Positions 1,056 to 62,293 of a stretch of 64,000 nt of DNA are shown here, piece by piece. The translations under genes were made by a program, and so were the position numbers. This stretch comes from Romanomermis culicivorax (taxonomy: Eukaryota; Nematoda; Enoplea; Mermithida; Mermithidae), in the NCBI GenBank assembly GCA_963922205.1, contig CAWUHX010000078.1, positions 186,001 to 250,000 of the forward strand. The letters run 5' to 3'. The first letter of the stretch is position 1; each line of letters opens with the position of its first letter. The notes beneath the pieces are model-generated. The model did not search any database. It had not been told where the DNA came from and saw only the letters and a program-made list of their open reading frames with translations.

Positions 1056-1442
1056 CATACATGTAACGGTGCACTGAGGTCTGGGGCGATTTTTGAGACC
1101 GGCGGTCACTGATTCCCCAAAATTTAAGGGGGGGGTCTCTAAAGAAAAAAATTAAATTTTTTACCAAAAAAGTCCGAAAAATGATTAAAAAAATAGTAAT
1201 TTTTGTTTTAAAAAATCTTTAAATAGGTATTCATGGCGCGAAGCGCCGAAAAAATTGGTGTTTTTGACCATTTTTGTTCAAAAATTGTTATTTTCCATCA
1301 AGAAATTCAGTATTTTTCGGATCATGACTACAATACAGCTAGCCATAGGATAGAAAAATCCCGGGGGGTCACTCAATGACTAGCCATATGGCCGACGATT
1401 TCTGGGGGATTCCTGTAGCACTTCCCCCCAATCACATGCATG
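1056..1442 (+). mobile_element. CATACATG-type MITE, subfamily A, copy 1
   Basis: Starts CATACATGTAACGG and ends CACATGCATG. It has the shared interior: CCCCAAAATTT, runs of AAAAA.AGTCCGAAAAA, the palindrome GGCGCGAAGCGCC, and gctagccatAtggcc near the end. The target duplication is weak (4 of 8). A fragment of another copy's 3' end precedes it at about 1028-1050. Confidence 0.75.
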
Positions 1443-1973
1443 AATTTTGTGAATTTTTCAAGCAAAATTTGCAGATTTTTATGTTTTTGTAATTACAACT
1501 TTTCCTTTACTCACCATACGTCAGTTGGACAATTTGGTATCGCCTTTCGATGAGTTTAATCTGCTGTTTCCCCTAATCTTTTTGATTTTATTATTAGTTC
1601 GGCGGGTTTCTCCTTTTTTATTGATTGTTCAGCGATTAGTCAATTATCTAGCTGCTTAATTTTTTTTTTATTCACTTGGTTCACTGTTTGATTGGCTGCT
1701 TTGCACACCATATGGTTTATATGATCCGATGCTGAACATCGGCCTTTCCATCTATTCTTGAAGTTGGGTCATGTGGAACAGATTTACATTTGCATACAGT
1801 GTCTAGTCTAGACCTGTTTGTTGTTGATTGTCATTTTTGATGAAATGATTCATTGTGATTTACTTCTAATCTAATTGGATTTGAATTAGATCACTGGAAG
1901 TCTAATCAGGCAGCTTGGTTTTCACTTGCGCAAAATTTTCATGTTTGGAAGTTTCACAACAACTTCGAAATGA

Positions 1974-2048
1974 GAATTTAGCAGCATTTGACCATTTTTC
2001 CATCAAAAACCGAATTTTGATGGAAAAACGATCAAATGCTGCTAATTC
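1974..2048. repeat. Near-perfect hairpin
   Basis: Arms 1974-2008 and 2015-2048 are inverted copies (left GAATTTAGCAGCATTTGACC, right GATCAAATGCTGCTAATTC) with a 6-base loop and only a few mismatches. Possibly a very small foldback element. Confidence 0.75.
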
Positions 2049-2290
2049 GTTTTTTTGTAAAATCATGGTTTTATCCGCATTTGATGTTGGCATTTTTGTA
2101 ACGCCGCAATAAGCAAATTATATTAAGTAATTAACTAAACCATTAACTAATTAGCTTCGCAATATATATCAAAGGGTGACCGTGCTTGTCAAGTTTCCAA
2201 GTTAGTTTGTAATTTTTTCTCAGTAAGTCCTCATTTGATTCTGTTTAACTTATGAAATTGACGATATCTCATTTTCGTAATCACTTTCAG

Positions 2291-2385
2291 ATAATGTCGA
2301 TCAGAATCGACGAAAAGTTAACAAGACGCAACTGGACAAAGTATCAGTGCTAACAGATATAAGCCGTGAAATGTGTTCTGTACAG
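2291..2385 (+). other. Possible upstream exon of the PHACTR transcript or of an upstream gene
   Basis: A segment bounded by ctttcag and a gtgtaa donor is open in one frame, starting NVDQNRRKVNKTQ. It ends in phase 0, which matches the frame that is open across the start of the next segment at 2757. It could be the last-but-one exon of an unidentified upstream gene, or 5' untranslated sequence. No homology is recognised. Confidence 0.3.
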
Positions 2386-2756
2386 GTGTAAGACTTGAAA
2401 ATGATGTATGGTTAATTAAGTAGGATTCTAGTTCATAATGCCTTCAAAATTCCATCGCCGAAAATCGCTGCTCATAATTGCATGTGAAGGTTCATTGAAA
2501 ATTCTTGAATCCCGTTCATATTATTATTAATGTTCATTAATTTTACTTTTCGCTCATACCTAATTAGTAATTATATATGCTTTAATTTCTTGTCGTCCTT
2601 CTACAAATTAATAACGTATTCATGTATCCTTTCCTATGAGCAATTTCTCGATGCAGTACATTGTTTGCTTCTCCTTCCTATATATTTACTTCTATAAATT
2701 TAATTGGCTGCGTTAATTTTTTACGTTCTTCTTTAAGCTTATTCCTTTTGTTTCAG

Positions 2757-2974: not shown

Positions 2975-5900
2975 ATGGGAAAATCCGACGCGTCCAAGTC
3001 AGAAATTGTCGATATTGAACAGCAGGGTGTATCGTCTTCGAATATAGAAGACGATATAAAAAAATTGAAGTATCAACGACGGGAAAGCATTACGTATTTC
3101 CGGTGTCGAAGTAATAGTGATCCGAAAATTGTGCCAATTTCTATCGTAGAAATGCATTGTAAGTTCAGAGTGGTGATTTTTGAATTCTACCAGAAGAACG
3201 CCGATTTTGGTGTCTTTTGCCGCCTTGCCGCTTCCGATGCTTAGACTAATGCGGCGTAACTTGAATCTATAATTAAATAATGGTGATATTTTTTTAAATG
3301 CTTCTGTAAACGAAACAGACACGAATCAAAAATGATCAAATAATTATTTTTATCATACCATCATAAATGATCAAGACATAATGCGAGTTTAATGATAAGT
3401 AGTTTAATGTAAAAAACGACTCACATTATAGAGTAAATCATATCGTAATATTTTCCATTCAGTATTTGTTCTCATTTTTTCACTTGTTTTTTATAGTTTT
3501 TGTCGACTTCTGCATTCTACCTAATGAACTATATATATGTCGATGCCCAATCTTAAATTTTTGGAAAGTCAATTTACAGTTTGATTTCATAATAAGCTCG
3601 ATGTTGTCACGAGCTAGATTTTCTCGTCATTTGGGCGGCAAGCAAACCTAATTGGCTCATTAAACGTGTCGAATCGAATTTTTTCCCGCAACTTCGTTCT
3701 TCCCGTTTTGCTCGCCAAACCTCCTATCTCATTTCCGTCCTTTATATTAGCCGTGTCTTCGCCTTATTTTTGCGCGTTTACGTCAGTTAAGTTAAACTCG
3801 GCGATGTCATAAAATTTAAGGTATATTAGCCGGAAATTTACTTTCTTGCTTGCAGCAAAGACAAGCATTATTCCGCCGGGTGACTGCTGACTGATTCCTC
3901 TACTCGCACCACCTAAATTTTGTTAGCTAAACTTCGAAAAACGTTAGTTTTACTCTATAGATATTATACATGAGAATATGTTTCAGTTTTCTCCGGTTTC
4001 ATTTTTGTACGATTACTGTATCGCATCGCTCATATTTATACATTTTTCTTTTGGCGTGGTACCTGCCCGCATAGATTTGCGTCTGGTAAACAAACTTGAT
4101 TTGTGACCATAAACAATAACGTAGTGGTGGAGGAAATGTTTGACTCGGAAATTCCTAGGTTGGTACATTAGATTATTTCTCAGACCTTGTTTGCTGTACA
4201 ATGTCTGAAGCAAGTGAGTTTTCTTGTGGTAACGACGGTTGAAAATGCAAAATTGATTATATTTTCGTCGCAGTTATTTTCTTTTCAAATGGAAAGTGTT
4301 TTGACGGCTATAACATGACAAAATTGAAAGGATTCCGATTTTTCGATGTAGTAACTATTCAGTGGCGATGCCAAGATTTTTTTTGGGGATATGAAAAAAA
4401 TTTAGGTTACGGAAAATATACAGAACTACGTTCTTTCATCATTGGAATTGAGAAGTTTTCGCAGTTTTTAGCTATAGGTCAATTTCCCAGAGTGATACGA
4501 AGGCTGGTATGAGGTTGAGGTTTGAGTGATTGGTATCCCCTTCAAGGGAAAACATTTTTGAAATTAGGAGAATAGTGAGTTTTTGCATCAATTCCTGAAT
4601 AATTTAACTGCAAATCGCCTGAATCAAAACTTCTGAAATTTGGCAGTTCGTTTGTCGAATGGATGCGCTATATTATCTACACAAAAGAAAAACTAACCAT
4701 CTGATACTGAGTAGCAAACTACCAAAAAATAAATTAAATTGAGAATACATAGCACCGATGCAAAGCGCCGAAAAGTTTTGATGTTTCTATCTTTGATAGT
4801 TTGAAATTTCATTTCCCAGCATTGTCATTTCATTTCGGTGGGCACGTTCCCGCTGTACCTCCTGGCTGCTCCACTGTAATTATCGATGCGGTATCAATGA
4901 TGAACGTTTTTCTCAAAAATGACATAGTTTTTGTATTCCTGCCTACATTTCCAGCAGGATACAAAATCGATTAACTATTCCGTAGAATTGAATCAAGAAA
5001 ATGTGTTTCGGATTTGATTTTCAAGGAACTTGAGGTACCTGGACAGTATGGTCAACTAGCTGCAAGTATCAACTCCACCGAATTTGCATTGATGCGAGAA
5101 AGCGTTCTACAGTAAAATGTGTTCGGAATTGAAAGAATTTCGATAACCGTTCAAGTTTCGTTCCAGACAAAATGCAATAAGTGAAACCGAATAGTGGATG
5201 TTGTTAATAACGATAAGTTCTTAAGTTCAATTTTTCATTTTGTCGATTTTCAAATTCCATTTTTGAGCTTAATAATACATCTGATGGAGTCAGAAGTCAA
5301 GAATTTTCTCTCCAGTGAGTGAGGCTGAAGGGATGGTGGGATAAGCCTCGTCGTGGCAGTGTGCGCCTGCGCCTACCATTTTGATTCTGTACCATATTTG
5401 CCTTGATAAACACTGAAAAGACTCGTGAACCAGACTACCCCATGGGGAGGGGTATGAGGGGGGTATTACCCCCACCTAAAATCCTGAAAGTTGATCACTG
5501 GTCGAATAATTTTGAGACAAAATGAAGTGTTTGTAGACATCTAGCCCACACTATCCCGAAAATTGTCAAGTTTACCCCTACCTGGAACATCTGACCCTGG
5601 GGACCACTGTCGTAAACCAACTTACCACGCGGGTATATGGGGATCAGCAAGTATCATTTCCAGAACTACATGTTCTCATACCAGTAAGACCTCCAGTCAG
5701 TTGGGGAGAGTCTAAGGTCCAAATTTGTGGAATGGGGGTACTCATTTTCCCTAAAATGTTGTGGGTTCCAAAATGGTCGAAAAATGGCCAAAAATTCCAA
5801 AAAAATTGCGAAAGTTTTCCAAAAAAGATCGAAAATGCAATTAATTGCATAATTTTTCGAATTGGGCTTCCCAACATTCGGGTCTGAACGAGCACCCAAC

Positions 5901-8900
5901 CTCCCCGCCCCAATTACAGGTATGTATGTTCTATCGGCCGCTCTCAACTGTATCTCATCATCAGCAGACAAGGACCTATGTCAAAATCACTTACAAAATT
6001 TGGGAGTGTTCATGTGTTAATTTCAGCAAATATTGAATATTATAGTCAGCCATACTGCTCAAAAAATACTTTTTACGGGAAATCTCAGATTCTTCTAGAG
6101 CTATCTTTGTTTCCAATAAATTCACAGATCTATTGCACTCCAAACGCCGATTTTGAAAATTTCTGGACTCAGTAAAAGACTCACATCGACGCTTTCGGTA
6201 ATTAACACGGCATTTTTTAGCCTGTGCGATATCTGGCTGGACTGTATCCTAAAATTTTTTATGCGATTAGAAAGATGCTCCATTTTGACCGCACACAGTT
6301 TTGATTCATTGACAGTTATGCGTAAATTTTATGACGTGCGTGGAAGAATCTACTAGATCTCATTCATGGATAAAATCAAGCTATAGTCGTAACTATTTCG
6401 AAATGGCAATGCTGTGATGTGTGCAAATAAAGCTTTCCACCAACGCACGTAGGGTACTCCGCTGCTCTTTATTTTTTCAAAACATTCTTTCCACTCAATA
6501 TGGTTTTGCGCATTCTTCGTCTTCGATCAATAAGTGTATTTATAGAGGCAAAAGTTTGTTCTTGTGTTTTGAAATTTTCTGAACTTTTGTTCGCATTTTT
6601 TCGCGCCTTTTTATTTTTTTCCACAAATTGGTGAATTAGTCTTAGCTGTTGTTGTGATACCGGAACCATTCTTCTGCTGAATTTTCTCTGTTTTATTTCG
6701 TATTTCTCAATTTATGTCTTTCGGCTTAAATTAATTTTTTTGGTTGTCGTTATTTTCATTTAATAAGATTTTTGGCGTTTTCCCAATAAAAATAGCAGCA
6801 ACGAGATATCAATATCTCAGCTCTATTTCAGCTTACGAGAAAAATGTGTCAACACTGTATGGCAGTGATATTAGAAATTTAGCGCATTTCAGCTGTTTTT
6901 CACTCTTCACGAATGCTGTTCATGTAAAAATCAGCTTTTTATGCTAATGAGAATTCGTGTTTAAAGAGCAATTGACGTCAGAAATTCGAGCATGACGCCA
7001 GATCATCTTATTGTACCACGTTTCATCAAGTTTTTAGTAAATCGATGAACTTTGACTTACGAGTGGGGTACGTGATGATTTTCTCCAACACCAAAATCAC
7101 TAGGGATTCCGTTCCAAAATTTCGTTTGTGCTTAGAGTGCTTAGACTGAGAACGGTAAGCTTGTTGGCCGATTAAAATAATACACGATTACGTTTAATCC
7201 CCTATTATGCAGTCGCCGATTAAAATCATATAATCCAGTATTAAAAGTATAATCGCTGATTGAAAACTGTACGACGGATACTGTTTACAATGTAGGTGTA
7301 CAGCTTTTCCTTTAGTACGTCATATTTCGTCTTCAATTTATCGTTATCAATTTTTTCCGTGATATCCACATAAAAATCCACGTGTCGGTAGAAAAATTCT
7401 GAAGAAATTGAATTATTTTGGAAAAAATTTTTTTTTGAATTTCTATTTGAAAAAATTTCTTTTTTTTGTTTTTTTAAATTTTTATTAATTTTTTTATTCA
7501 ATTAGCTCTCTTGCACTGTTGTTAGTTTAAATCGGGACCGGAACTTCTCATTCGAATATGCTTCCGTCGAATTCGATCTATGCAGGAAATTACGATGTTA
7601 CTTGATTTTCTGCTTCATCGTTCTTTAAATCGTCCAAAAAAACAACATCGATTCGTCAACTACTAAACCGACCACGCAATCGCAAAAAAACAGATATAAT
7701 CGGCCTTTTAAACCTGGGACGGGGCAGAGTCGAAAACTCCGATTATAATAATCTAGCTTTAATCGGCTGACAAGCTTGCCGATTGTTTTAATCTCGGATT
7801 GAACTAATCGGTGTTTAATCAGCCGACGAGCTTACCAAAAAAATTCAATCCTGGATTATAAGTGACGTTCAATCCCCAATTACTATAATCGTCCAACGAA
7901 CTTACCTCCCTGATTGAAGAGACCTAACATGAAATCAAAGGATTCCTGAAAATTTCAACGAAATAAAAACTTCTGATGATTTTTATAACCGCCCGGTTTA
8001 AAGCGTCTGCAAGTTCAATGTCCACAATTTAAACAATTTTAAGAACCAAGAATTTTGTTGGAAATAATTTTATCTAATCATTCTAAACTTTACATACATG
8101 AAGCATGCATATGAAGTTTTTAACTTTAAGTTTTAATCCCTCGTAGTTTCATGTAGTGTTTTCACCTATCAGTAGGTGAGGTATTCTTCAAGTTACAAAA
8201 ATTATAAAGTTGCTCTAACATGTCGCTCTTCACAAAACTCGTTTTTTAATTTAAATTTCTACCGTAGAATTTTTATTTCTGGCTTCATCCAGTTTTGTGT
8301 TCGTGTTATATTCATTCGTTTCTATTTTTTCAGCAATGTGCTCGGGTATGAAAAATTCATCCAGTAGTGATAAAATTTTACTCAAATCTTCAATAACGGC
8401 GAATTTAACATCACCGAATACGACCGCTGTTGTAGGCGCCATCTCCGGTCATCATCACAACAGTCATCACCGTAGAAGAAGAGCTTTTTCGCAGAGTTTA
8501 AAAACTACGAAATTTTGGTTCCGTCTGTTGCAACCGTGGAAGTGGCGGCGGAAAAAATCTGCGAAAAATCATCACCACCAACGTACAACGGTGAATAATC
8601 GGTTTTTCGAACATATTTTAAAAAATAATACATTTCCGACAACAGGTAAGTTATTTTTTGGATTTCTGGCCGTTGGTCATTTTTCAGATTTATTATCATT
8701 ATTATTCAGGTTCTGATAAACATTCTAATGAATCTCTCAACATATCCGATGAGAACGACGTTTCGGGAGTTGGCGTTGTACCGGCTCGATCTTCAGAATG
8801 TTTAGGTAACAATAGTCAGTTTTCCTCCGGAAGCACCTTCGGCTTGTTTGGAACTTAGTGGAATATTCCAATTTTCACGATTTCTTATGTGGATAGTTGC

Positions 8901-11900
8901 TCCCAGTATACTCCTCGTCTTTCTTGCTTGTTATCTTTTCCATCGGAAAATATTGATTGCGAAATTGGAAACAGAATTTGGCGTCATTACCATTTTTCTG
9001 TATTTTTCATTTTTCTAGGTGTAAATCCAACATCATCTTCGGACCAAACTGCAACTAACGCTTCAGCAGAACAGTCTAAACTGAACAAAAACCCTGCGTC
9101 ACCATCTTTCCCGCCGATGTTAAGCGGCGGTGATGTTAATATTCAAGAACTATCCAGTAATTTATCAAAATTTCCTTCCGATCAATGTCACTGGAAAAAT
9201 ACCGGTGGAAGTTGCATCGATTCTTTGCCTTCATCATACAATAACCCATCGCCACTTTCTGCCGTCGATTCGCCGTCGCCTGAAAAGCAAACGGCAAAAA
9301 TTGTCCCAACAGCAACGCGGACGGTTTTCGCCGCTGCTTCGCCGAAAGATAATTGTAACAGTAGTAACTCAGGCTGGAATGTTTCGCCTAATCAGTCTTG
9401 CCAGGTAATGTTTACGAATACAGTAAAATGGTCGTTAAGGGCAGATGTACTCGTGTAGTATCAGTCGTTGGAAAATTGCTAGTCTTACAAAAACAATACT
9501 ATTTTTGTAGAAGTTCTTTCTTTCGAGGTATTTTTTCATCACAAAATGTTTATTGACGTCTTGATAATGAGTGTTTCTCTTGGAGCTCAAGAGAACCTAA
9601 TTGTTACTCCACTGCTTCACCTATATAGGACGAGTCCTGAGGTAGAATTAGGGCGCAACAGTTATTCCCGGAATCCGGGTTCTAACGTGCGTTACCTCCG
9701 TTGCAAGGTATAAATGTCAGATCAGCGGGGAACGTTGTATTTTGGGGTGATAAATCCACAGAGATTAATATTATATAAAAATGGCCCACTTTCACCATCA
9801 TAAAACCACGAATAACCAAAATCCGGAACAAACGGCCGGTTTATGCTGGTCTTCCAAGCAAATTGGCGTCGTCGCTCTTTGCGTCGACTTTTAGGCTAAT
9901 TTGCATAACCTTTGAGATACACTATGTCCATCCCCGATACCTGATTTGTAAATATTTATTTGGTCCCCACATAGCTAACCATATGGTCGAAGATATATGG
10001 GGGAGTTTATGACACTTATTGCCAAGATTCCAATCATTTTCATAATTTGAACTCATGAAATTTCAATTCGTTTTTCCGTCTATCTTCAGAAGTGATTATT
10101 TTTAAGACTAGCGCCTTAGTTAAAACGGTGGTCGCCGCGACGGAAGTGCCTCGTTTAAGGGCTTTCATACCTCCGACGCAAATGGAGAGAAACGAAGATT
10201 TTAGTAAATCAAAATCTGCTGCAGCATTGTTGCCCCCGTCTACCTCTAAAATGTTGCCGTCCGGTTCTTTACTCCAGGCGACTATCAACGTTCGACCTCT
10301 CTTTCCGCCTGATTATCAAACCGCGACAACATCAGGTAGCATAAATGTCTTTATTTTTCATCGATGTAAAAGACTGAAATGAGCTCTAAATTTTTTGGTT
10401 TGTAATAATAAAGTTTTTTGCCATAACTACCGGTAGGTTTTGTGGATTTTGCGATGTAAGCTTTTTTAAGGTTGCAACACGTCAGTGTCGCCGATGTTCG
10501 CTGGTAGACGAGGAACAATGCATCGATTCTCTAATGCAACGTACGCTAATCAGGACAGTCCTCAACATAATGGTGAGATTCTTTTAGAAAAACAATACGT
10601 TTTTTGATTGGCGTATTTAGTTTAAAACGTCTCCCATACAGACTGACCTCAAAACATGAGTTTCATTCATACATGTAATTGGGGGGAAGTGCTATGGGAA
10701 CCCCCCATCCCAGAAATTGTCTACCATATGGCTAGCCATTGGGCGACCCCCCCCCCCCCAGGATTTTCCAATCCTATGGCTAGCCATATGATAGCCCTAG
10801 AGACCCCCATAGTTTTAGTCGGAAAAATACTGAAAAATATCATTTTTTCATGAAAAATGTCAATTTTTGAACAAAAAATGGTCAAAAACGTCAATTTTCT
10901 CGTCGCGCCGTAAGTACATATTTCATTATTTTTTGACAAAAATTACTACTGTTTGAACCGGTTTTCGGACATTTTTCATGAAAAAATCGATTTTTTTCCT
11001 TCAGCGACCCCTCCCCCCAAAATTTTGGGAATTACTAACCCCCGGCCCGAAAAAGTGCTCCAACCCCCCTCCCCCCCCCCAGACCTCGGAGCTCCGTTAC
11101 ATGTGTGGTTTCATTTAATATTAGAGTTCCACACTGATCCACTATTTTCTTCTTGCTATTTATGTTTGCAACTACATGTAATGTTTGAAAAGCTTTCCGG
11201 CGCACTATATTTGGTATTGATTATTTTGCGAATTGCATCTATCACCAAATTTAACCTACTCGTACAGGTTCTGTAATGAAAATCCAACAACTTGCCTCCA
11301 ATTTGTACTGCATAACGTTGTTTTTGCTTCTTAAGTTTTGAAAAACAGTACTCGTACAAAAACAATCATTTTCTTCTTTTATTCTTGCAACAGTCGAATA
11401 CAGTACGTTTTCCAGGAACTGATTATTTGAAAGTACAAATGAAGAATAATTAATCAAATACATGAACTAAAGGAAAGAATCTTGAGATATTTAATCAGCA
11501 GGTCGAATTATAGTGAAGTTCCGTGAAAGGCTAAACACAGTCGAAATTCCAAGTTCAATAAATCGTATGAATGAATTCAAGAATAGGAAATTCTAGCAAA
11601 AAATTGATGTTTCTAACGTCTTACTATTACAAAGTTGAGTACATTTGATGACCACAAAGAATATATGTTAGCTCAACTTCAAGCTTGCACTGCCGAGCTA
11701 TTTTGTTCATCATATGAGAGCTTCTATGAACAGTACAAAAACATTTTTCTCGTTTAACAAATTCTACAGCTGAATAGGCTGATATTCCGTCATAAACTGA
11801 TAATTAGAAAGTACAAGTCAAAAGTTCCATTTACAAACAGTAATTGGAAGAGTCTAGATGTATTTGATAATGAGATAGTAATGTAAAAAACGAATGACTG

Positions 11901-14900
11901 AAGCAATAGATCACAGAATTTCCAATTTTATCATTGAGGTACAAAAAACAGTGTCCTGGGCCCGGTTTTTCGAAGTGCACTTTGGAAAAAATTACACTTT
12001 CGCGCATAATGTTCCTTGCAGCGAAAAATACATTTATTCTTAACGCGCGCTTCGAAATATCGTGTTCTGGTCCAGTGTTTTTTTTTTCTGCACTGGGCTT
12101 TCTGCTCAGTGCAGAAAATTCAAAAAAAAAGTTTCTGCACTGCGGTTTTCTCCTCTGACCACTGTTTTTCCCCCGGGCCTTTTCCCCAAATGGGGGAAAA
12201 TTTTCCCCAAAAACTTTGTTTCCCCATTTTCCTGACGTCGTTTTTCGCTTAAAATGCTCTTAGACGCTTTATTCATGTATTTTTGAGCTTTTTCAAACCT
12301 TTTGCTGTTTTTAGAGCCTTTAATTCATTAAAATTGAGGAAACGTTTGAAATTTTTGAGTTTGACCGAAGTCTATTCAGCATTGTAGAACAACTTTTCCA
12401 GCAAACTATTCAAAAGCATAATGACTTTGCATTGCGTGAGAAATCGACGTTCAAGTTCTCTATGATGACAAGTGAAAGCCCAAAAAGATACTGATTTTTC
12501 GGGCGCGAAGCGCCGGAAAATTTTTTTGGATATTAACATTTTGCGACGCTGGTAAATCAATTTTCCGAACATTTATTTCAAGAATTAGATTTGAATTTTG
12601 TGTTTAAAAGTCGTAATTTCTGGAATTTATATTTCAATTCGCAAACTCTCATGAACTTGGCTGAAAAGTGTGATTAAGGTGAGTAGAAATTTCCAAAAAC
12701 TATCCATGAAGCTTTTCGATTGATTTTATGTTAAGAAGGGAATAATCGTTTCAAAAAGTTCACAGACTTGACGTATTGATCTTTCTCAAAAAATGTGTCA
12801 GGGAAAAAATGTGAATCTTCATTGAATATCAAGATAAACTGTTGACGATTACCAATTAAAACATGAGATAAGACGTTTAAAATGATGAAAACCATTGAAG
12901 ATTAAATGATAAGTGAAGGCAGACATGCTAGAAGCTGCACCTGAGCTAGGAAATAAATAATGCTCATTGGAAAATTTTGGGATTATGACGTTATAAAATG
13001 CACCAAAATGCATCTTTTCTGTATCCGATGTGATTAAACACACGACTCAAAAAATTCTGGCTTATTGCAGAAAGCACCAAAAAAAATTCTGCTCGAAGCC
13101 TAAAAAGTCTGTACTGTGCAGAAAAAAACAGTGCCCTGGTCTCTAGTATACCATAATTTAATTTGTGTTTGATATTTGCTCAATTCATTTGCAATTTCGT
13201 TTTTAAATAAAAGCCTTGAGACGTAAAATGTATAATACCTCGGTCAGATTAGGTAAGGGTTAGAGTGAGGTAGAGGAATATTTGACGTTCTCTGACGTGT
13301 ATGACTATAGATTTCCGTTTTATTTGCCGCGTATTACACGGTCACCTGAAAGATATTTCGTAGTTGGGATATGTTGGATTGGATCTCATTCAGACATGCA
13401 CGACAAGAATTTTCCAGGGGAAGGTCCTTGGACTTTTTATCGAGGGCGTGGGTGAGCAAAAAAACAAAAATAAGCTCCACAAGCATGTTTTTTCCTGCAA
13501 AATATGCATAAAAATCATCAAAAAGACAGTATTCGAAAATTTTCAGATGTGTTTGACGATTTTCTCGGGCTCGGGGATGTCCAGTGTCTCAGGTAGGAGT
13601 GTTTACCCCTTACCCCCGATGTTCATGTATGATTTCATTATAATGCTGCTTCGTTAGTTCTCGTGAGTGCAGATCAAAATTTTTCGAGAATCTGGTCCTC
13701 GATTCGTTATTTTTTATCGCTACGCAAATTTCTATGATAAATATCTATAAAAACGAGCACAACTGTTTTCTGATTCTCTATTTTCCAGCTTTCATTTTCG
13801 ATCGTTTTTTCTGGCCAAATGGTTCAGCATAACATTTGTGTAGGCTATGATGAAGATGTAATGAATTTTGTTGCGATAAAAGAAAAATGAGTTCTGAAAA
13901 CTACGCAGTCTATAGATTTATATGATGATGGAGAAGTTGGCGGGGAAACTTTTTAAAATTTTGATTAATTCCTTACCGAATTACGAGACATAAAAGCGTA
14001 GAAACAAAAACCCGTAACTTGTATATTACATGCTAAAATCTCAGGACCCGATTTAGATTCCAGTTAAATCAAAATTTAGAATTTCAGGTTATGAACATTT
14101 TTAAATTTCTTATTGATCTAGCTTTTTCCAATCAAGGTTCGAGGTCAGCTGAAAACAGCTGCTGTCACTATACCGTCACGCTAAACGCCACGTCAGCCGA
14201 CGTTTCTAGTCCTCAACAATATATTTTCTACAATCCTTTATTAACCGGAGAGGGCGTCGTCTCGACGTCGTCGCAAGTCGATCAGCAGCGCCCGACGCCG
14301 CGCGTCGACGATCATAATCATAACAATTTCGTTTCGTTTTCGCCGCAAGTTTTAGAGCATAATAGACTATTCTACGAAGATTTAGTCACACAATTAAATA
14401 GAGCGATCGGTGACAATGAAGACGACGAGACAGGTGACGACAATTTCGATGATGTGAACGACGATGACGAAGAAGATATTGAAATTAGTTCGATAACTTT
14501 TGACACGTTACACAGTAAGTTTGGTCATAATAGGATTTCTTCAAAATGGGTTGATCTATCGTTAAAAGTTGCCCAATAATAACAAAAATTAGGATTTCCA
14601 ATTTTTTTTAAACCGATGTCAACATGACTGAGTTCCACACGTATACTCAGATCGTGAGTCGAATTGAATCATCAAGTTCAAAATTCAACATACATTGAGT
14701 GTGTTCTCAAAAACATATGTTATTGCAGAAACGAAGCTTCAGTGCTTTTCTAACTTTCTTTGGAATTGAGAGAATGTGGGAAAAAGAAATTTCACATCAA
14801 AAAGTGTGAAAGAACCAGTGCAAAGTAATTTTAAAATAAAATATTGGATATGAAAAAATTGGCTTACAAAGCTTCTGCCTAAGAATTGAAAAGTGAAAAA

Positions 14901-17900
14901 AGTTTGCCGGAAATAAATGTAAGAATTTAGCTTCCAACTATAAGCTGTGTATCTTGTTTCGCTCAGCCTTAAATGTCTATGGCCAAGTTGATTTCGTTTG
15001 TTTACCATTAACAAACAGATCATCAGTAACCATACGTGTAACGGAGCCCCGAGGTCTGGGGGGTCGGGGTCAGTAATTCCCAAAATTTTAGGGGGAGTGG
15101 TCTCTGAAGAAAAAAATACGATTTTTTCACGAAAAAGTCCGAAAAATAGTTCAAAAAATAGTAAATTTTTTCTAAAAATACCGAAAAAATTGACGTTTTG
15201 ACCATTTATTGTTCAAAAATCGACATTTTTCATCAAAAAGTTGATTTTTCAGTATTTTTCCGACCAAAAGTATGGGGGTCTCTACGGCTACCATATGGCT
15301 AGCCACAGGATTGGAAAATTCTGTGTGGAGGTCGCCCAATGGCTGGCCATATGGCCGATGATTTCGGGGGGCTTTCTATAGCTTTCCCCCCACCCAATTA
15401 CATGTATGTTAGTAACATATTGATCATCTGCCACAGCAGAGGTCCCCAAGGTGGAAAATTTAGGTAGGGGTAAAATCCTAAATTTTAAGGGTAGTACTTG
15501 AAATATGCCGTGACCTTTTTTTGTTTTTTTTTTGCTCCCAACTTTTTACTAAGGAGGGGGGAGTTGTGGTTTTTCGAACTTACAGTCAAAAACCATTTAC
15601 TATTTCAACCCCATTTTCCAGCTCTTAAGCATGCAACTTGAATGTACTAATTATATGCAGAGAATAGTCAGGTGTTGAAGATTGTCGTGTCAACTGATTC
15701 CTGCACATTTCAAGAATAGGGCTGCTTTCAATTGAAAGTGCTCATGCCGAATGTGGCTTTAGTATTATTAATCCTATTAGATTATGAACCACGAGGTTGA
15801 AACCAGGTACCACTCCTGATCCACGTCAACAGACCTCACATGTCTCAACTCATGAACAGACTTCACATGTCTCAATCTCATGAACAGACCTCACATGTCT
15901 CAACTCATGTACATACCTCACATGTCTCAACTCAGGAAAGTATGCCACAGCTTGGATAACCATATGCGCACAGAAGACCCAATGCAGAAGCGGGGAAAAG
16001 AAAAGGAGAGCATAAAGAGGCAGAATTTTAAGAACATAATGTTTTTCTTCCCAAGGGGCGATTTTTTGATTAATCACATATACATAAGTCATTATTTCAT
16101 CTCCCAATTATATTTATAATGATTTCCTGCAAGTAGTATATATTAATGTGCTGATATCCTTTCCTAAAAATTGCTATATGGCACAAGTTGCATACTTTCT
16201 CATTATCATTTGCTCAGTAAATGTGTCAAAAAGAGCAGTGAGTAATTCCTCAGAATCACACATTCTGCAATTTTTCTCGAATTAGTATAACCTACTGGGG
16301 AGAGGATGAAGTCTACCAAAATTTTTTGCTATAGTGAGCTGTTTTTATGGGGGTAGTAAATGAATTTCCAAATCTAAGACGGGGGTAATACCCCCCCATA
16401 CCCCCCTCCATGGGGTGCTCTGTGCCACAGTGATTCCCTAGACAAGAAGTCATCGATTTACTCATCTATTAGCAGATTTTCTTGTGCACTGAGCTCAGTT
16501 TTCGAAGCTCGTGCACAAATTTTTCAGGGTGCTTTGTGCACGGTGTAGAACTCGATTTTCATATCATGTAGGTTTTCAAGTTGAATGTTTTCAATAGGAT
16601 TTTTACATTTTGTTTTGTGTGGAAAACAATTTAATTGACTTCAGAATTAGACCGCTTATCCAGAAAATAAATGTTAACAAAATTTATTTTTCAGTATTCT
16701 AATATCAAAATCCATTAACAATTTTGGCCCTTTACGCCGAAACTTGTTTATCCTTCCTGCCTGAATTTATTAAACATTTTTGCCTCAATGTATTCAACAT
16801 CGTTGACTTCAAGCTGATATTCTAGTATAGGTTAGCTGATTGAAAACATGGCCATGATTCTATACGGAAAAATTTTACCTTGAGTCATGGAATAATTCTT
16901 AAAAACATCCATTTAACAGCATCCTAGAGTATAAAACTTCAAAAGCGCCGGAAAGAAGATGAATCTAATTCAGTCCAAAGTCTTTTACTTTGGCCTATCA
17001 CAGAGATGTCACCAGTAGATTTTTTAAACAATTTAGCATTTTTTCCTTTAGTTGTTAGTTGGTTTTCAATTTTTTTCTATATCAGCAACAGTGAGCATTG
17101 TTTGAATTCATGTTATAAAGGTGGAGATTTTTTTATCACAGTGCACAAACTTTTTGACCTAATTTGTGCATCGGATATACCACGCAGTGCAAAAAACCTG
17201 CCTATTAGGTTTCTTTATCTAGCGAAATTCAAATTATCGAAACGGCTTAATTCACCTACCGTTGGTCTGTAACGTATGTTACTGTGTCACCGATTATATT
17301 AGTTCTCTTGTTCTGTAAAACAATTTGTGCTCTTTTCTGTTTATGTATGCTTCTCAGAGGTATGCCATGCATTTTTTCTTTCGTGCTACTACTACAGCAC
17401 TTTGTCGTTTAGTTCCCGTAATAGAAGAAATACCGGCAAAAGAACCGAATTTATTCGCTCAACCTATTAAACCAGCGTTAAAACGAGCTCTCAGAGCGTC
17501 ACTTAAACGAGCACATTTGCGGAATATACGTTCGACGTAATTTCAATTCATATGTTTAAAATATGGACAACATAATTAGCAAGTCTCACTCAAATTGAAA
17601 CCATTTTTTATCGAGTTTTGCTCGAAAGAGAATTGCAAATTCAGTTAATTTTAAAGTCTTATTTTCCCGCGAACGCCATAAAAAATAAACACCGTTATAA
17701 TCGATAGGTATTCGAAAATTCTGTCAAAGGGCATTTATCAGTTCCCTTAACAAACTTATTTCACTTTTAAGATCGCCTTTTATACGGATTGAACCTCAAA
17801 ACGGGTACACCAATCAAATTGTGAACGAAACAGTGCACCAAACTCAGCAAGATTTTGACGAAGATGGTCCAATATTGTACAAAGATGAAGCGAAATGTTC

Positions 17901-21562: not shown

Positions 21563-21890
21563 GGGGATCAAACCTGCTGGTTAGCAAGAATCTGTCGAAG
21601 GACGAATAACCAGATTCTTGCCAACCACCAGCAGATTTGACCCCCCCCCCCCCCCCCAGTAATGATTTTGGGAAGATGGCGAAACCTCATAAGGATGAAA
21701 ATGATACTGTAATTAAACCATCTCTATAGACGAAGCGATTCCAAGGAAATAACATTAAAACTTTAAAAAAATGCTGTCCAAAGCAAATAATTTCACATAT
21801 TTGAATAATCGAAGAATATGCAAAAGATAATTTTCTTTCCCACCCTTTGTACTGGCTTACCCAAGCATAATTTCTATGCTGCGCATGTAT
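21563..21890 (-). mobile_element. CATACATG-type MITE, subfamily B, truncated copy
   Basis: Reverse orientation. The right end reads GCGCATGTATA; the left end is missing its CATG terminus. The interior matches the copies at 35875, 51115 and 53265 (acttTTcTaaacaa-type segment, AGCAGATTTGACCCCC). Contains a 19-base C run at about 21641-21659. Confidence 0.6.
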
Positions 21891-21904
21891 AATCAAGAGG
21901 CGTG

Positions 21905-35868: not shown

Positions 35869-35874
35869 AGTTAT

Positions 35875-45090: not shown

Positions 45091-45099
45091 ACGCAAAAT

Positions 45100-46800
45100 C
45101 TGAAAGTTTAGAACAGCAAAATTAAAATTCACAGGATAATTATACAACTTGCATTTCAACTAATGGCAATGCTGGAAACCAGTTCAAGTGATCATTTAAA
45201 ATGACTACGATCCGAGATTCCATTCTACTGATTATAAATTTTTGTGGAATAAACATTCATACAATGAGCAGTCATATCGGTAAATGATCATGTATAAGAA
45301 AATAATAATTCATAATCATGAATTTTCGAATGAAATTTTTTCCCTTGTATCGAATGACACATTTTGAAATGATGGATGCAGTCAAGTCACAGCCAAACTT
45401 TTATTTAAAATTATGGAAGACTCGTCGACTCTATTTAATAAATTTTTCCTTCTTGAAATAAAGTCCTTCACACGTTTTAGTCACTCCAAGATTATCGAAA
45501 TTGACTTCCTGATGTATTGTAAGGCTGCATTTGCCAAAACTCCGACCACTGCATCTATCATTTCAAAATAAATGGAGTATAGGAATCAAATGACAAAACT
45601 GTAGACTTTTCAAAAAAGATTAATAGGATACTATCAAAATATCAAACTATTTTCCTAACGGGAAACGATAATTTTTAATTCTTAGCAGTTGGAATCATAT
45701 GCTTATTTAGATCACGTCTTTTGACATCAAAAAAATTCATTTTAGACATGGCAAAATTCAGATACCATTCAACAATTTTCATGGCCCACACACTGAAAAC
45801 TAATTAGATTCCGAATTCCGATTTAAGTGTTCAAATATTTTTTGACGTTTCAACTCAATTTTTACCGTTTTCGCATAGTTTGTAGCGATTTCTTGCCTAG
45901 CAATTTTTTGTCAGTAACACATTACCAAAATGAGGCAAATTTCCTGATGATATTTCAAGATTGGGATTCATTTATCGCCTTCATTAAAAAAAGCAAATTG
46001 TAGTTTTTGCTGCGAGAGCGGGCAAACGTTCACAAAAAGTCTCGACTTAAATCTCATGATGACGAATTTTCGTCGAAATTAGTAATTAAGCCAGTCAGAT
46101 TGCGTTTTATGGGAGGCTAATAATAAGAGAATTTTCGTATGCTTTTTCATATATTAATCTACAGGGAAGAGACACGGAAAAAACCAAACACGAAGGATAA
46201 AATGATAGACAATGAAACAAATCAGAAAAATTGAGTGGAGATTAAAAATTAAAGATTAGAAAAGGAAAAACACTGGATATTTAGCGCAATTTACAATAAA
46301 CTTTGATATAATACATAATTGATCTTCTCCGCAAGTCTTATTCATGGAAATTTGTGGCTGTTCGAAGTATGGCAGCAAATTAAAAATACGTACAGTAATC
46401 AAAAAATCGCGATCATGGTAAAATATCAAAGCGGACAAGCATCTGTTGTTAACGAGCTTACTGATTTGATAATAGAAGTATTCAGTTGCCATAAAATTTA
46501 CAGAATAAAATAAGAAGCATTTATAGTATTGAGTTAAGATTGATGATATTAACTTTTCTTCCGCTAGCTATAATATCGAATAATTGCAGATTTGTGCCCA
46601 ATTACTGTATTAAAACTTTAAAATAAATTCAAATTTAATGAACACATTTTATTACAGAAAGATTTATAATAGATTTTTTTCAACAAAATTCTTTGGTTTC
46701 TGTGATTGAAAAACTTAGATCGTTGGAAATCGAGAAATAGGAGCTTACTATATAATGAATTTATCGTGGTTATTAGTGACTTAATTCAAAATATGATTGT
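45100..46800. other. Upstream flank of TWK-B, no gene seen
   Basis: AT-rich sequence. A degenerate copy of the repeat with ends near tgaaatgatggatgcag / gcatctatcatttcaaaat lies at about 45360-45585. No ORF with convincing coding character was found. Confidence 0.4.
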
Positions 46801-51114: not shown

Positions 51115-51487
51115 CATACATGCGCGTGGCGGGGGGGGGGGGGTTGGGGGGTTTTGACCCCCGGCAGATTTGACTCCCCAGCAATGATCAAGAAGATGAC
51201 GAAGGAAAATGAGCAAGAGAGAAGAGAAAGTCGTCATAAAAATGGGAATGATGCTGCAGTTTAACAACTTTTCTAAACAAAACATACTTGGTTCCAAAAA
51301 AGTAACATTAAAACTTTAAAAAGTGCAGTCTAAGCAAATAATTTCACATATCTGACTAATATAAGTTGAAGAATACGCTGCTTAGATGTTAGAAGACCTT
51401 TTTTTCTTAATCAGGAACGAAAAAAACTCGTATTCCACCACCTATCCTGGCTGACTCCCAGCAGAATTTCTATGCTGTGCATGTATG
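51115..51487 (-). mobile_element. CATACATG-type MITE, subfamily B, copy 2
   Basis: Exact 8-bp duplication GTAAAAAC at 51107-51114 and 51488-51495. Ends CATACATGCGCGTGGC and GCTGTGCATGTATG. Contains a 15-base G run. Confidence 0.85.
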
Positions 51488-51932: not shown

Positions 51933-52176
51933 ATATCTGTTTTTTATAAAATGCTTCCAAATAGAAAAGTGACACAAATCAGTACTGTCGACAAAATCGT
52001 TTACTTAGAGCTTTGACCGTAAAATTTTTCACTCGAAAAATTGTTAAAGGTGAGCTCAGTATGCTCAGAAATTTCTATACCTATATGACATATCGTTCAT
52101 TAGAAAATCGTGAAAATCTGAAATACAACTTGCTTTCCACTTTTATTATTTAGAAGCATTTCAAGAAAAACATATA
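51933..52176. mobile_element. TATAGTCTG-type MITE, copy 5
   Basis: Left end ATATCTGTTTTTTATAAAAT, right end AAGCATTTCAAGAAAAACAT. The interior is very close to the 24029 copy (GTGACACAAATCAGTACTGT). Confidence 0.65.
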
Positions 52177-53264: not shown

Positions 53265-53666
53265 CATACAAGCACAGCATAGAAATTCTGCTAGGGTCAG
53301 CCAGGACAGGGGGTGGAATACAAAACTTTTTTTCGTTATTGATAACGAAAAGAAAGGTCTCAGAAAGTCTTCTAACATTCAAGCGGCATATAATTCAACC
53401 TATATAGCTAGATATGTGAAAAAAGTGCTTAGACACCACTTTTTAAAGTTTTTTTTGAAATCAAGTATGATTTGTTTAGAAAAATTGTTAAACTACAGCA
53501 TCATTTCCATTTTTATGACGACTTTCTCTTCTCTCTTGCTCATTTTCCTTTGTCATCTTCTGAATCATTGCTGGGAAAGTCAAATCTGCTAAGGATCAGC
53601 AAGAATCTGCTAAGGGTCAATAAAAATCTGCCGGGGGTAAAGATCCACCATCCACGTGCATGTATG
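53265..53666 (+). mobile_element. CATACATG-type MITE, subfamily B, copy 3
   Basis: Exact 8-bp duplication GTGACTGT at 53257-53264 and 53667-53674. Ends CATACAAGCACAGCATAG and CCACGTGCATGTATG. Inserted between cysteine-rich coding-like segments on the minus strand. Confidence 0.85.
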
Positions 53667-54244: not shown

Positions 54245-54437
54245 ATAGTTTGTTTTTCATTAAATGCTTCTAAATTGAGAAAAGAACAAAAATTAGCTGT
54301 GTTGTCAAAATCGCGAACGCAAAGTTTCCACAGTCTTGCACGACGAATGGTTTAACATAAATTTGTAAAAATATAAAATAGTACTTGCTTTCTATTGTTA
54401 TAATTTGGAAGCATTTCAAGAAGAACAAACCACTGTA
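54245..54437. mobile_element. TATAGTCTG-type MITE, copy 6
   Basis: Left end TATAGTTTGTTTTTCATTAA, right end AAGCATTTCAAGAAGAACAA. Shortened interior. Confidence 0.55.
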
Positions 54438-57227: not shown

Positions 57228-57301
57228 TTCCAATTTTTACAACTGTTCTTTCGTACCACGCGTAAAAAAGAACGAAATATAAAAACATAATTTTAAACTC
57301 G

Positions 57302-60300
57302 TCAAACCAACAAAACCGCGTTGATACACCCGTCGTTTTCGGGATTGTTGGTCACTTGGGCGTATTTACCCCAAACAATTTTACCGCCCTGCGTAACTAG
57401 ACCCAGTTCACTAATGTTCACTTCGACGATCGTACCTTTGGTTATAATGCCTAATTGCGTGTAAGTGGCGGAAGTGGGATTTTTCTTGACGCCGATAATT
57501 GGTAGGCAAAATGTGGTCTTTAGTTCGGGATGAGTGACGTGTGCTTTTTTAAAGCGAAGTGCCTGAAAACGGAATCGGATACAGTAAAAAAACTAAAATG
57601 AGGAGTGCTACTGTCAACTTTGAACTTTCGCAGATACTATAGTCCATTTAGATTAAAATGATAGATGAAGCGAAAACCAAGAAAGTGAGTTCAATTTGAT
57701 ACGCAATTTTCACTTGGTGGAAAACATTATATTGTAGAAAAATGCTAAATGTTTCCATAAGAATGACAAAGGCCAAAATTATTGAAAAACATCACTTTTA
57801 TTCACTGTCGATTTGGGCGGAACAGCGTCGACACCATAGATTTATGGCCACGATATCATGAAATTTTTTTTCGATACTGCAACAAAGTGCACTGTACCAC
57901 AGATTTAGGATACCATGAAAGGAGCAACATAAGCATACAAACCAGGCATTAAAATCAACTGGGTTTCTGAAAATTTATAAAAATATGTAAAAATAGGCAA
58001 AAACACAAACCATGGCATCTCAAAATCTAGATATTTTTTAGGTGTGCAAGAAGCCGTTTCATGGATAAGTTTATGTGGGAATATGAATCAGATTACTCGG
58101 AATGAGGCGATAGTAAGCCAAACGTCCAAACGTTAAGTTAAAATTTCTCCCTGTACCGCACTCGCGATTAGTTTCATTTAAAAATCGAGATATATAAGAT
58201 ATTCGCCATGAAAGAGCTACCTTTAAAAAAGAACGTGAATAATCCATGAGGCTGAAACAGGACCCTAAAACAGACGAAATTTTCTGCACCGCTCGAGTCC
58301 TGTCACTCAGGTTTTCCGAACCATACATGTAACGGAGCCCCGAGGTCTGGGGGGGGGGGGGGTCGGGCCACTTTTTTTTGGGCCGGGAGTCAGTAATTCC
58401 CAAAATTTTGGGGGGATGGGTCTCTGAAGGAAAAAAATTCGATTTTTTTTACGAAAAAAGTTCGAAAAACGGTTCAAAAAATAGTAATTTTTGTCTAAAA
58501 AATGATAAAAAAAGGTATTTACGGCGTGAAGAAAAGGTATTTACGGCGCGAAAAAAGGTATTTATGGCGCGAATTGACGTTTTAGACTATTTTTTGTTCA
58601 AAAATTGGCATTTTCCATCAAAAAATTGACATTTTTCAGCATTTTTCCGACCAAAAGTATGTGAATTCCTAGGGCTACCATATGGTCGACGATTTCTGGG
58701 GTTCTGGGGGGGGGTTCCCAGCACTTCCCCCCCAATTACATGTATGTTCCGAACCATATGTTATACGGCTCATAACTTGACGTTCTCAAATTTTTACATT
58801 AATATCAGCATATTTTCATTATGAAGACAATCGAGTGGCATGCGCGTGGTTTACAAAATCTCAAGGCGAAGATTTTACACATTGTCCCCCTAGAACGCGT
58901 TGAATGGTACCTCACATCACTGAATATTTACTGATGAAATTCGGAACCATGCACATCCTCAAAACATCTAGAATTTGGGCCAAACATTTTTTGAAATTCC
59001 AGGGGCATAATGATGCCTATTTTTACGTTTTTTTCAAATTTACAGAAATCAGGGTAACCTACATTTTTGGTACAGTGGTACATTTTTGACCATTTTTATT
59101 GATAAATAACTACTAAGTGCTAGAAAATTACTTTTCTGACCTTCTCGTTCAGAAACCATCATTTTCGACCAGAAATCTGACATTTTTGACCGCTTTATCT
59201 TCGTGAAAGGACCACTTTCCACTAAAGAGCTGACACTATAGATTTTTTTTTTATACAAAAATTTCTATTTTGCATAAAAACATCGACGTTTTCTATGGGT
59301 TTTTTTTTTGTTCAAAAAGGATCATTTTTTTACCGAAAACTAAAGTTTTCGACCATTTTTTGTTCTAAAAAAGAATTTTGTGCCGAAATTTCTTGACGTT
59401 TTTTCCAGAAATTACCAGTTCCAGTCAAAAAGTCCCTATTCCGCGAGAAATTTTCACTTTTAACCAAGTCTGAATATTTCCTAGCAAAGGTTGACAATTG
59501 TCACTATTTGCCGTCCGAAAGTCACTATTTTCTAGGAAAAGTTGATATTTTCAATTGTTTTTCCTTCAGAAATCATTATATTTTAGCGAAAAATTTTACA
59601 TTTTTGACCGTTTTCCGTTCAAAAATGAGACTTTTCTACTAAAAATCAAGATTTTTTCATCGTTTTTTTGTTAAGAACTTACTGTTTTCAACTAAAAGTT
59701 GAAATTTTTCACCATTTTCTGCTCAAAAATCAATATTTTCTACCGAAAAATTAAACTAGTTATTTTATAAATAGTCAGTCATATAGAAAATTATAGCAGA
59801 AACACCGAAACGCGCGCAAAAATTGCTTTAAACCATTGAAGAGATAAAAAATTGATCAGGGAAGCGCTAAAGTATCAAAAATGACGTAAATTTTTATCGC
59901 AGCGCCGTCTCTCTTCTTACTCTAATCGTGCTTTTTTTTCGGCTCTCGTGAGCAAGCTCGCGAGCACATTTGTGGAACGGATTTCCAGAGCCAGCTCCAG
60001 CCGAGCCAAAAAAATGGCTCTGTCTCTGCTCTATACTGGCTTTCGGAGAGCAATAGTCATGGAGCCGGCTGCAGGAAATCAATTCCGATAATCTTGAAGT
60101 GGTTGAAAAGAGTGATCATCGAAGAGTCTGTACCACGGAAGAACATTTTTTTGAATAGAGTCAACGAGCCTACCATTAGTCTTGAATAGATGTCTGACTG
60201 CGACCTCGCTGCATCGATCATTCCAAAATGAATAGAGTATAGAAATCTTAGGAATATAGTAGTACAATAATGATGGCATTTTGTGGCAACCCCTGAAATA

Positions 60301-61261
60301 CATATCCCAAATTTTAAGACGAGAGTTACCATAGGCCGGATAAATCTCTCGTATTTCGGAGGTTTTCGAGTGAATCCATCGCCGACGAAACAAACTTTTG
60401 TCACCATGCGTTTCCAGGCCTTTCCTAAAATTCTATCGAGACTGCTTTTTCAAAACAGAAAAAAAGAAAATCCTTACGTCTTGATTTGCCGGTTTTCACA
60501 ACTTTGAACGCCTCAGCTTCGCTTACGGCTTTAACTTTCGGTAGAGGGACAACCCATTTACCCTGGAAAAGATGCATATGCTAACATTTAACTCCACAAG
60601 TTTGTCGAGAAATTTTTTTCTCAATGACATGACAACTGCAAACGATGAACCCATGCGCTTTCTTTCGCAGCGTCTGAATATAAGATTAAGAAACAGAGGA
60701 TTATTGCTTTCAGTAAAGAGCTTGGATTTCTGTGAGATTTTCTACATGAAAATAAAGGATGTCGATTAAAAAAAAAGAACTACTGTTCTCTATTCATATT
60801 TCTCACCGCTTTTTCTTTCCTCTTTTGTTTAATCATATTGCTCAAAACTTTGCCGCTAGTTTCTTTTTCACGATCAAGCAAATAAGCAGGAATGGCTCCT
60901 TCTTCAGCGTCTTTTTCTTTGGTACTCTTTCTTTGCTTCTCTTCGTGAGATTTGATTCTAAATTTAACAAAAGATAACACGGCGAAGCGGTACGTGATTT
61001 TCATAAATTATGAAATCGTACAATTTGCGCATTTGAACCTTCTCCGAATAACGTTTCTTATTGAAGAGTTTAGCTTTCAATCCGCGCAATTTCTTAGCTT
61101 TGGCAGCCAATTCGTGGGCGGCACGTCCCTCTTTTTTCCGCCTAAAAATTTATCAAAGCTGACTAATTCGTCGTAGTAAGAAAAGAACCTTACGTCCTCT
61201 CCTCATGATCCAGACGGCGACCGTACCGTTTACGGTGCAAGTCCATATAATCATTTTGCGG
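57302..61261 (-). CDS. nsa2: Ribosome biogenesis protein NSA2 (TINP1), 6 exons found, 259 aa plus initiator Met
   Basis: Exons in transcript order: 61261-61194, 61141-61022, 60957-60807, 60562-60478, 60424-60330, 57562-57302; all join in frame. The protein starts [20 protein letters not shown] and continues through [77 protein letters not shown] and a C-terminal beta-rich domain ending [11 protein letters not shown]. This is near end-to-end identity in form to eukaryotic NSA2, a nucleolar factor of pre-60S maturation and 27S rRNA processing whose C-terminal domain is eS8-like. Length with one Met (260) equals the human protein. The first exon found begins exactly at codon 2, so ATG must lie on a tiny upstream exon that I could not fix. 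Intron 5 (57563-60329, 2.8 kb) carries repeats. Confidence 0.95.
58322..58746 (+). mobile_element. CATACATG-type MITE, subfamily A, copy 6
   Basis: Exact 8-bp duplication TTCCGAAC at 58314-58321 and 58747-58754. Ends CATACATGTAACGGAGCCCC and CCCAATTACATGTATG. Contains a local triplication of AAAGGTATTTACGGCGCG at about 58508-58570. Confidence 0.9.
60062..60245. repeat. Repeat with GATCGATGCAG ends, half copy
   Basis: Matches the right half of the 34835/39846 repeats: AAGAGTGATCATCGAAGAGT, GAGTCAACGAGCC, GCGACCTCGCTGCATCGATC, and the end AATGAATAGAGTATA. Lies in NSA2 intron 5, 85 bases from exon 5. Confidence 0.6.
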
Positions 61262-61679
61262 CTGAAAAGGAACAAGCGATATTTGAAAAACATTTGATAG
61301 TGAAACGATTTATTGCACTATTTTTCTTCCTCTCCGATAATTAAATTATTTTATAGGAAAGAAGGTATTCCCACAGCCGGTGCGACAGTTTTGATGGTTT
61401 TGCAAAAACTTTTTGTGTTGGTTTTTGCACGGTAGAGAGATTAGAAATCAACTTTCAGTTTTTAACGTTATGACAAGAAAATTACCGGGTATTTGCGAAT
61501 TTTTTAATTTTTATCCAAGTATTTTTTTGAGGATTTATGATCCTCTTATTTTGTAACAACATTGTGACATTCATTTCCTGTTCAAAAAACAAAATTTGAA
61601 TTCATGTCTTTTGTAGGGACTTCGTTTTATTACATTTTTCCGGAGCTTTTTATACACAATTATACGATATAATAGCTCC

Positions 61680-61861
61680 AGAGGTATCCAAGGTCAGATT
61701 TTTCAGGTAGCGGTAAAATTGATAATTTTTGGGGGTCGTGTGGCTAAGTGTCTACTAAACACGTTATTTTGTCACGAAATTAGGCAACCAGTGATCAATT
61801 TTAAGGACTTTAGGTAGGGGTAATACCCCCCCCCCATACCCTTCCCTATGAGGTAGTCTGA
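61680..61861 (-). mobile_element. CAGACTAC-family MITE, copy 3
   Basis: Exact 8-bp duplication ATAGCTCC at 61672-61679 and 61862-61869. Reverse orientation: AGAGGTATCCAAGG ... GAGGTAGTCTGA. 182 bp. Confidence 0.85.
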
Positions 61862-61912
61862 ATAGCTCCCTCCAAAAATCGCCTTACAGAATTACAATTA
61901 GTTTTCTGTAGA

Positions 61913-62293
61913 CATACATGTAACAGGCCCCTGAGGTTTGGGGAGGGGGGCTGTCGGTCACTGGTTCCCAAAATTTTAGGGGGGTCTCTATGGGAAAAAA
62001 TTTTGATTTCTTTCATTTAAAAAAGTTCGAAAAACGGTTCAAAAAATAGTAATTTTGTCTACATATCGTGAAAAATGTATTCATGGCGCGAAGCGCCAAG
62101 AAAATTGGAATTTTTTATCAAAAAATTTACATTTTTCAGTATTTTTCCAACCGTAAATATCGCGGTCCCTATGTAAACCATATGGCTAGCCATAGGACTG
62201 GAAAATCCTGGGTGGGGGGTCGCCCAATGGCTAGCCATATGGCTGACGATTTCTGGGGTGTTCTTATAGTACTTCCCTCCAATTACACGTATG
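61913..62293 (+). mobile_element. CATACATG-type MITE, subfamily A, copy 7
   Basis: Flanks TCTGTAGA / CCTGTAGA (7 of 8). Ends CATACATGTAACAGGCCCC and CCAATTACACGTATG. Starts 51 bases after the CAGACTAC element. Confidence 0.85.

Follow-up and report, generated by a model that had tools for sequence, protein, structure and literature searches.

What moved the short repeats scattered through a 64-kb stretch of the nematode Romanomermis culicivorax genome, and why do elements with different interiors end in nearly the same sequence? This stretch, hereafter the window (G000:C78:186001-250000, i.e., 64,000 nucleotides of contig CAWUHX010000078.1), belongs to an assembly of 359 Mb in 595 contigs. 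An initial annotation had assigned 14 copies in it, sorted into families A to D, to hAT-like miniature inverted-repeat transposable elements (MITEs) that share the tip CATACATG. We consider it probable, at roughly 85%, that these elements (the clan, for short) are indeed hAT-like MITEs, that is, high-copy non-autonomous cut-and-paste transposons that fall into at least four families whose interiors are unrelated. The shared terminus, 8-bp target-site duplications (TSDs) and a preference for nTnnnnAn targets support this assignment.

We paired tips in the window as CATACATG..CATGTATG with at most one mismatch per tip and a spacing of 150-600 bp, and scored TSDs as the number of identical flanking bases out of eight (x/8). 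Once the tip variants of C and D are admitted, tips bounded by an 8-bp TSD delimit ten of the 14 window elements, five at 8/8 and five at 7/8. The elements are as follows (window coordinates; no strand assigned):

1056-1442: damaged A-family element; flanks match at 4/8 only, with the far/near G-run layout described below retained.
5677-5924: D-family element with tips CATACCAG and CATACCTG; TSD 7/8 (CATGTTCT/TATGTTCT).
10668-11107: A-family element of 440 bp; TSD GTTTCATT, 8/8.
13391-13631: C-family element of 241 bp with tips CAGACATG and CATACATG; TSD 7/8.
15031-15408: A-family element of 378 bp; TSD 7/8.
21563-21891: B-family relic; right tip CATGTATA, left tip unrecognisable and left bound taken from the initial annotation.
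35875-36253: B-family element of 379 bp; TSD ATAGTTAT, 8/8.
38237-38659: A-family element of 423 bp, starting TATACATG; TSD 7/8; possible empty site (125 bp, 74%, six gap openings).
40933-41234: A-family relic, too degraded for certain bounds; no convincing TSD at its tips.
41539-41779: C-family element; TSD 6/8; shares sequence with an open frame, at its low end, that matches an ion-channel domain.
51115-51487: B-family element of 373 bp; TSD GTAAAAAC, 8/8.
53265-53666: B-family element of 402 bp; TSD GTGACTGT, 8/8; possible empty site (112 bp, 75%, three gap openings).
58322-58746: A-family element of 425 bp; TSD TTCCGAAC, 8/8.
61913-62293: A-family element of 381 bp; TSD 7/8.

The five duplications previously reported as exact (10668, 35875, 51115, 53265 and 58322) were all reproduced, as were the six placed at 6-7 of 8, five of which match at 7/8 and one (41539) at 6/8. 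The list of 14 copies stands for these elements, but damage prevents 1056, 21563 and 40933 from being delimited. At 13391, the left tip had been given as CATACATG and needs correcting to CAGACATG, which is the norm for family C.

The tip is AT-rich, and composition alone predicts 1.6 occurrences of CATACATG in the window, which is what could be said for the view that chance or a plain ACATGTAT sequence bias produced the pattern. We observed 17, a number reached in none of 100 shuffles. Among the 18 tip pairs in the window, five have 8/8 flanks and nine have at least 7/8. When 300 random 8-mers from the window served as tips, they gave one single 8/8 pair, never two, and a maximum of three pairs at 7/8, never four; 60 dinucleotide shuffles yielded no tip pair at 7/8. 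The same contrast holds across the genome, where exact end sequences occur 2,066 times for A, 968 times for C and 3,926 times for D, with no occurrence of any of the backwards control patterns. The shuffle, random-tip and backwards-pattern controls, together with the duplications and empty sites described below, led us to reject chance and composition, to which we attach next to no probability.

With a single window copy per family as the BLAST query, first-look candidates numbered 4,109 for A, 3,734 for B and 3,181 for C, and the best 40 for each were scored; the D element at 5677 is a member of a separate, very large family. For each of A, B and C, we fetched 20 high-scoring copies from the same genome (loci are numbered with L, contigs with C), all being best matches to one window copy rather than a random draw. 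TSDs of at least 7/8 flank 42 of these 60 copies (28 at 8/8 and 14 at 7/8), namely 15/20 for A (13 and 2; one A copy is without tips), 17/20 for B (12 and 5) and 10/20 for C. Outside this count, the duplication in A copies L020 and L025 appears, by eye, to be shifted by a small tip indel, and L009 has a TSD of at least 7/8 at a tip 492 bp on, past the scan range. The elements measure 199-454 bp, plus the one of 492 bp. They are thus small, uniform in size and numerous, with terminal inverted repeats (TIRs) and TSDs, as MITEs are; coding capacity was judged by length and by eye. Neither a genome-wide lack of duplications nor simple ACATGTAT bias, the two outcomes named beforehand as fatal to the assignment, is compatible with 42 duplications in 60 copies and ends far above chance.

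The targets themselves are not random. We assembled 61 distinct elements with a TSD of at least 7/8 from the window and the fetched loci, of which 59 could be assigned by script (A 22, B 19, C 12, D 6); the remaining two matched no rule and look like B and A. Target position 2 is T in 44/59 and position 7 is A in 36/59, and both occur together in 27/59, compared with a window background of 10% (p ~2e-12). TA at positions 4-5 (nnnTAnnn) was found in 2/59. The nnnTAnnn target is of the Buster type and nTnnnnAn of the Ac type, and Hermes belongs to the Ac group. Clan targets thus favour nTnnnnAn, the Hermes-type hAT pattern, a preference described for Hermes (PMC10368747).

For the empty-site test, flanks were rejoined minus one duplication and compared with sequence elsewhere. 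Junction-spanning matches were obtained for 17 of 71 entries, corresponding to 11 distinct elements, with locus repeats and the L033/L070 self-match set aside. Of six cases viewed, the best is A copy L016, whose empty counterpart at L109 aligns over 136 bp at 95% without gaps; D-like L056 matches L041 over 183 bp at 83%, and L005 matches L147 at 85%, with differences in the target itself. The matches for window elements 53265 and 38237 (74-75%, with gaps) are weak. B copy L082 sits within an A element. The good cases are insertions rather than duplicated larger units.

The TIRs of hAT elements start with the consensus YARNG (CAG or TAG). Set against this consensus, the TIRs of the clan are short, the similarity between the two ends of an element running out after ~8-13 bp. 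Families A, B and D begin with CATAC(A/C)TG at both ends, while family C has CAGAC at one end only, pairing CAGACATG with CATACATG. The C tip CAGACATG is exact in 14/20 fetched copies, and among 100 places listed of the 968 with the C end, 98 read CAG and 2 read CAT; the D ends read CAT at every place among the matches listed. The CAG end of C (CAGACATGCACGGCAAGAATTTTC) is similar to the CAT end of B (CATACATGCACAGCATAGAAATTC), and by its letters CATACATG is a single base away from a CAG tip. At positions 9-10 the tips fall into two classes, TA in A and D and CA in B and C. The earlier remark that the tip is not the usual CAG/TAG holds for A, B and D, but since elements of family C start with CAG at one end and have the CAT tip at the other, the terminus is less foreign to hAT than that remark implied. 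Likewise, the terminus described as palindromic is shared but is not a full palindrome, except in the TACATGTA of A. These tips suggest that a CAG tip may drift to CAT, in which case MITE searches keyed to CAG/TAG would miss such elements.

We searched for a source of transposase with two profiles. For PF05699 (the hAT dimerisation domain), the best 150 of 1,837 first-look candidates were scored, and for PF14291, 44 places. From these we examined 72 of the 150 PF05699 places and four PF14291 places, 76 in total: the 3' flanks of 70 PF05699 places were scanned for clan tips, two more, in which an 864-codon frame is intact, were read over 5 kb each, and the four PF14291 places over 4 kb each. 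No transposase was found between CATACATG or CAGACATG tips at these 76 hAT places, which are a sample with many unreadable termini (L144-L146/L152, L046/L051/L061, L155/L156 and single copies). The CATAC/CAGAC ends met in these flanks are clan MITEs or lone tips (e.g., L097, L150, L099). Among tips without known MITE sequence behind them, there were three pattern matches of the B/C type and two of the A type, the latter being one A variant and one lone tip. An A-like end behind the transposase at L097 was considered as a partner and rejected, as the hAT copy there stops at a TAG tip of its own, short of the A-like end.

Where copy comparison made hAT termini readable, they were of TAG, CAG or CAAGG types, with one CAG/CAT family: TAGGGATG, TAGAGATG, TAGTGATG, CAGAGCC with CAGGGCC, CAGGCCC with CATGGCC and, less surely, CAAGGCTGG. 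The transposase-bearing family with unequal tips is asymmetric in the same way as family C, having CAGGCCC at the 5' end (whole in L111, where a TSD of TGCTTAAC was read by eye from the flanks) and CATGGCC at the 3' end in 4/4 copies (L107, L108, L134, L137). Three of the four members of this family (L107/L111, L108/L112, L134 and L137) match DUF4371. At L087 (C126:714000-719000) and L088 (C77:1205400-1210400), 3.9-kb hAT elements with CAGAGCC/CAGGGCC tips are 99% identical and carry an uninterrupted 864-codon frame; judging from their sequences, they represent a classical hAT that was active in this genome recently. L153 and L154 belong to another hAT family; they are 98% identical, each has an open frame of 623 codons, and their terminus is of the CAGGCCC type, with the 3' tip CAGGCCCG as the only end read; L153 includes a stretch translating to X.

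Several observations weigh against a hAT origin of the clan: the T in place of a purine at position 3 at both ends of A, B and D; the C at position 5 in all four families, where YARNG has G; the weak duplications of family C (3/20 copies at 8/8, 7/20 at 7/8); and the outcome of the search at the 76 places. The elements might instead be MITEs from a different superfamily that makes 8-bp duplications (P, KDZ/Zisupton or Merlin), as KDZ and Merlin duplications are also ~8 bp and the Drosophila P tip begins CATG. P elements make ~8-bp duplications too, according to a study of Anopheles (PMC1562414), but the TIRs given there span 27-31 bp, against the ~8-13 bp of end similarity here, and long TIRs are absent from the clan. 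The nTnnnnAn preference and the CAG start of family C both fit hAT. P was the only one of these rivals searched for, and the PF12017 profile had no match, a weak negative given that control genomes were silent too. We therefore regard another superfamily as improbable and retain the hAT-like assignment.

The four families also share an asymmetric end layout. In each, one tip (the near end) has an inward G-run starting at +14/15, and the opposite tip (the far end) has one starting at +27 to +29. Runs of at least five begin at 14 in 18/22 A, 13/19 B and 3/6 D near ends and at 15 in 6/12 C near ends; at far ends they begin at 28 in 17/22 A, at 28-29 in 12/19 B, and at 27 in 4/12 C and 4/6 D. Random window positions gave 0.12-0.13% for each G-run class. 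Counted without family labels and with runs of at least four, 44/61 elements are near/far, one is near/near and none is far/far; in the other 16, at least one end has no run in range. This count is the fairer one, because the rule defining family A includes letters that start the near G-run. Since copies inside a family are related, the independent evidence comprises the four families. By eye, the near ends appear homologous over ~13 bases, whereas the far ends of A resemble those of D and those of B resemble C, with the A/D pair unlike the B/C pair.

Behind these ends, the interiors are unrelated, in agreement with the initial annotation: 11 of 12 comparisons fell within their own 100 shuffles, which preserve two-base blocks only, and C against reversed D scored 31 compared with a shuffle maximum of 30. 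Subterminal repeats, as expected of hAT elements, are present in every family (GGCTAGCCA four times in A, CTGGGGGTC four times in B, ACACCCCCT three times in C and AGTTGGGGG twice in D), and G-runs recur in all four consensus sequences. On its reverse strand, the B consensus contains a short open stretch ahead of GTAGT that reads MIEKMTKENEQERRESRHKNGNDA when translated by eye; it could be a remnant of a transposase exon or chance.

We infer that a hAT transposase supplied in trans would cut at CAKACATG or CATACCTG tips and join the element to a staggered 8-bp nTnnnnAn target, leaving the duplication. The G-runs at ~+14 and ~+28 would be its putative subterminal binding sites, and the same or sister transposases may have moved all four families. 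The earlier claim that one transposase mobilises several lineages stays a conjecture. No transposase gene with these tips came to light at the places examined; a common transposase lineage is plausible but unproven. Copies differ from their consensus by 0.2-4.3% in A (15 copies), 1.7-5.3% in B (16/17) and 6.9-15.7% in C (13/15), where three rows (one B, two C) were dropped as misoriented and the B and C consensus sequences are slightly blurred by misorientation. These unequal divergences suggest that the families may differ in activity period and source, while the very young A copies point to a recently active transposase. Four independent families, each with its own transposase, could have inherited the shared tip and G-run layout from related hAT ends. 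The divergences and the TA/CA split of the tips speak for this alternative, and we give it a substantial chance, a little short of even; against it stands the shared near/far spacing of all four families, which is most simply explained by a single lineage of enzymes that went on selecting for it.

A more specific proposal is that one hAT-lineage transposase reads all four families via a spacing-coded, two-part end consisting of the tip CAKACMTG and a G-run at ~+14 or ~+28. RAG signals obey the 12/23 rule, and under this proposal only near/far end pairs would synapse, which would be functionally analogous. Such ends would leave the interiors free to change and would explain how unrelated families come to lie behind one terminus. 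We consider this proposal unlikely.

Other features of the window lie beside the clan. The open frame overlapped at its low end by the C element at 41539-41779 occupies 41706-42398 (-) and scores above the cut-off for Ion_trans_2 (38.2 bits), with sub-threshold matches to this domain at 31488-31934 and 44692-45159. Dispersed repeats outside the CATACATG clan were found at 12731-12861 and 63592-63722, and at 24033-24270, 51936-52172 and 54342-54427. The repeat at 12731-12861 partly overlaps 12827-12961, which resembles the insertion target of A copy L005/L012.

The clan is large, A, B and C together contributing ~11,000 first-look candidates (unverified singly) in addition to the 3,926 exact D ends, and its sampled A copies are very young. 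In it, a hAT-like end is naturally replicated four times, with a different sequence behind it each time. Their common features (tip, nTnnnnAn target and G-runs at ~+14/+28) lead directly to a hypothesis about the features that the transposase has to recognise and about the reason for the asymmetry of hAT ends. Our literature search for non-autonomous hAT elements with CATAC TIRs found none, which is no proof of their absence from print.

Several known systems resemble the clan in part. The coral CMITE elements are likewise a group of MITE families with a terminal motif that could permit cross-mobilisation, but they are of the piggyBac type with TTAA duplications, and their interiors are conserved while their TIRs vary, the reverse of what we observed (PMC2872659). 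The P-element MITEs of Anopheles share 8-bp TSDs and element ends around unrelated central sequence, but differ in their longer TIRs and in belonging to a superfamily for which the domain search here was, weakly, negative (PMC1562414). The animal hAT MITEs mar (PMC3517528) and those derived from BuT2 (PMC3942097) are also short and non-coding, with short TIRs and 8-bp TSDs, and a hAT transposase acting in trans is presumed to mobilise them. Unlike these, the clan has CAT/CAT (A, B, D) or CAG/CAT (C) tips, G-runs at fixed unequal distances and several families behind one terminus, with no autonomous partner among the 76 places; its copy number far exceeds the 24 BuT2 MITEs reported (PMC3942097). 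Hermes shares both the 8-bp nTnnnnAn targets and dissimilar left and right ends, and its subterminal repeats are read asymmetrically by BED domains; it differs in its tip and in its subterminal motif, AAGT/AAGC (PMC10368747), and no transposase is linked to the clan at the places examined. The clan comprises new families of an already known kind, hAT-like MITEs, and the layout of their ends is the interesting part.

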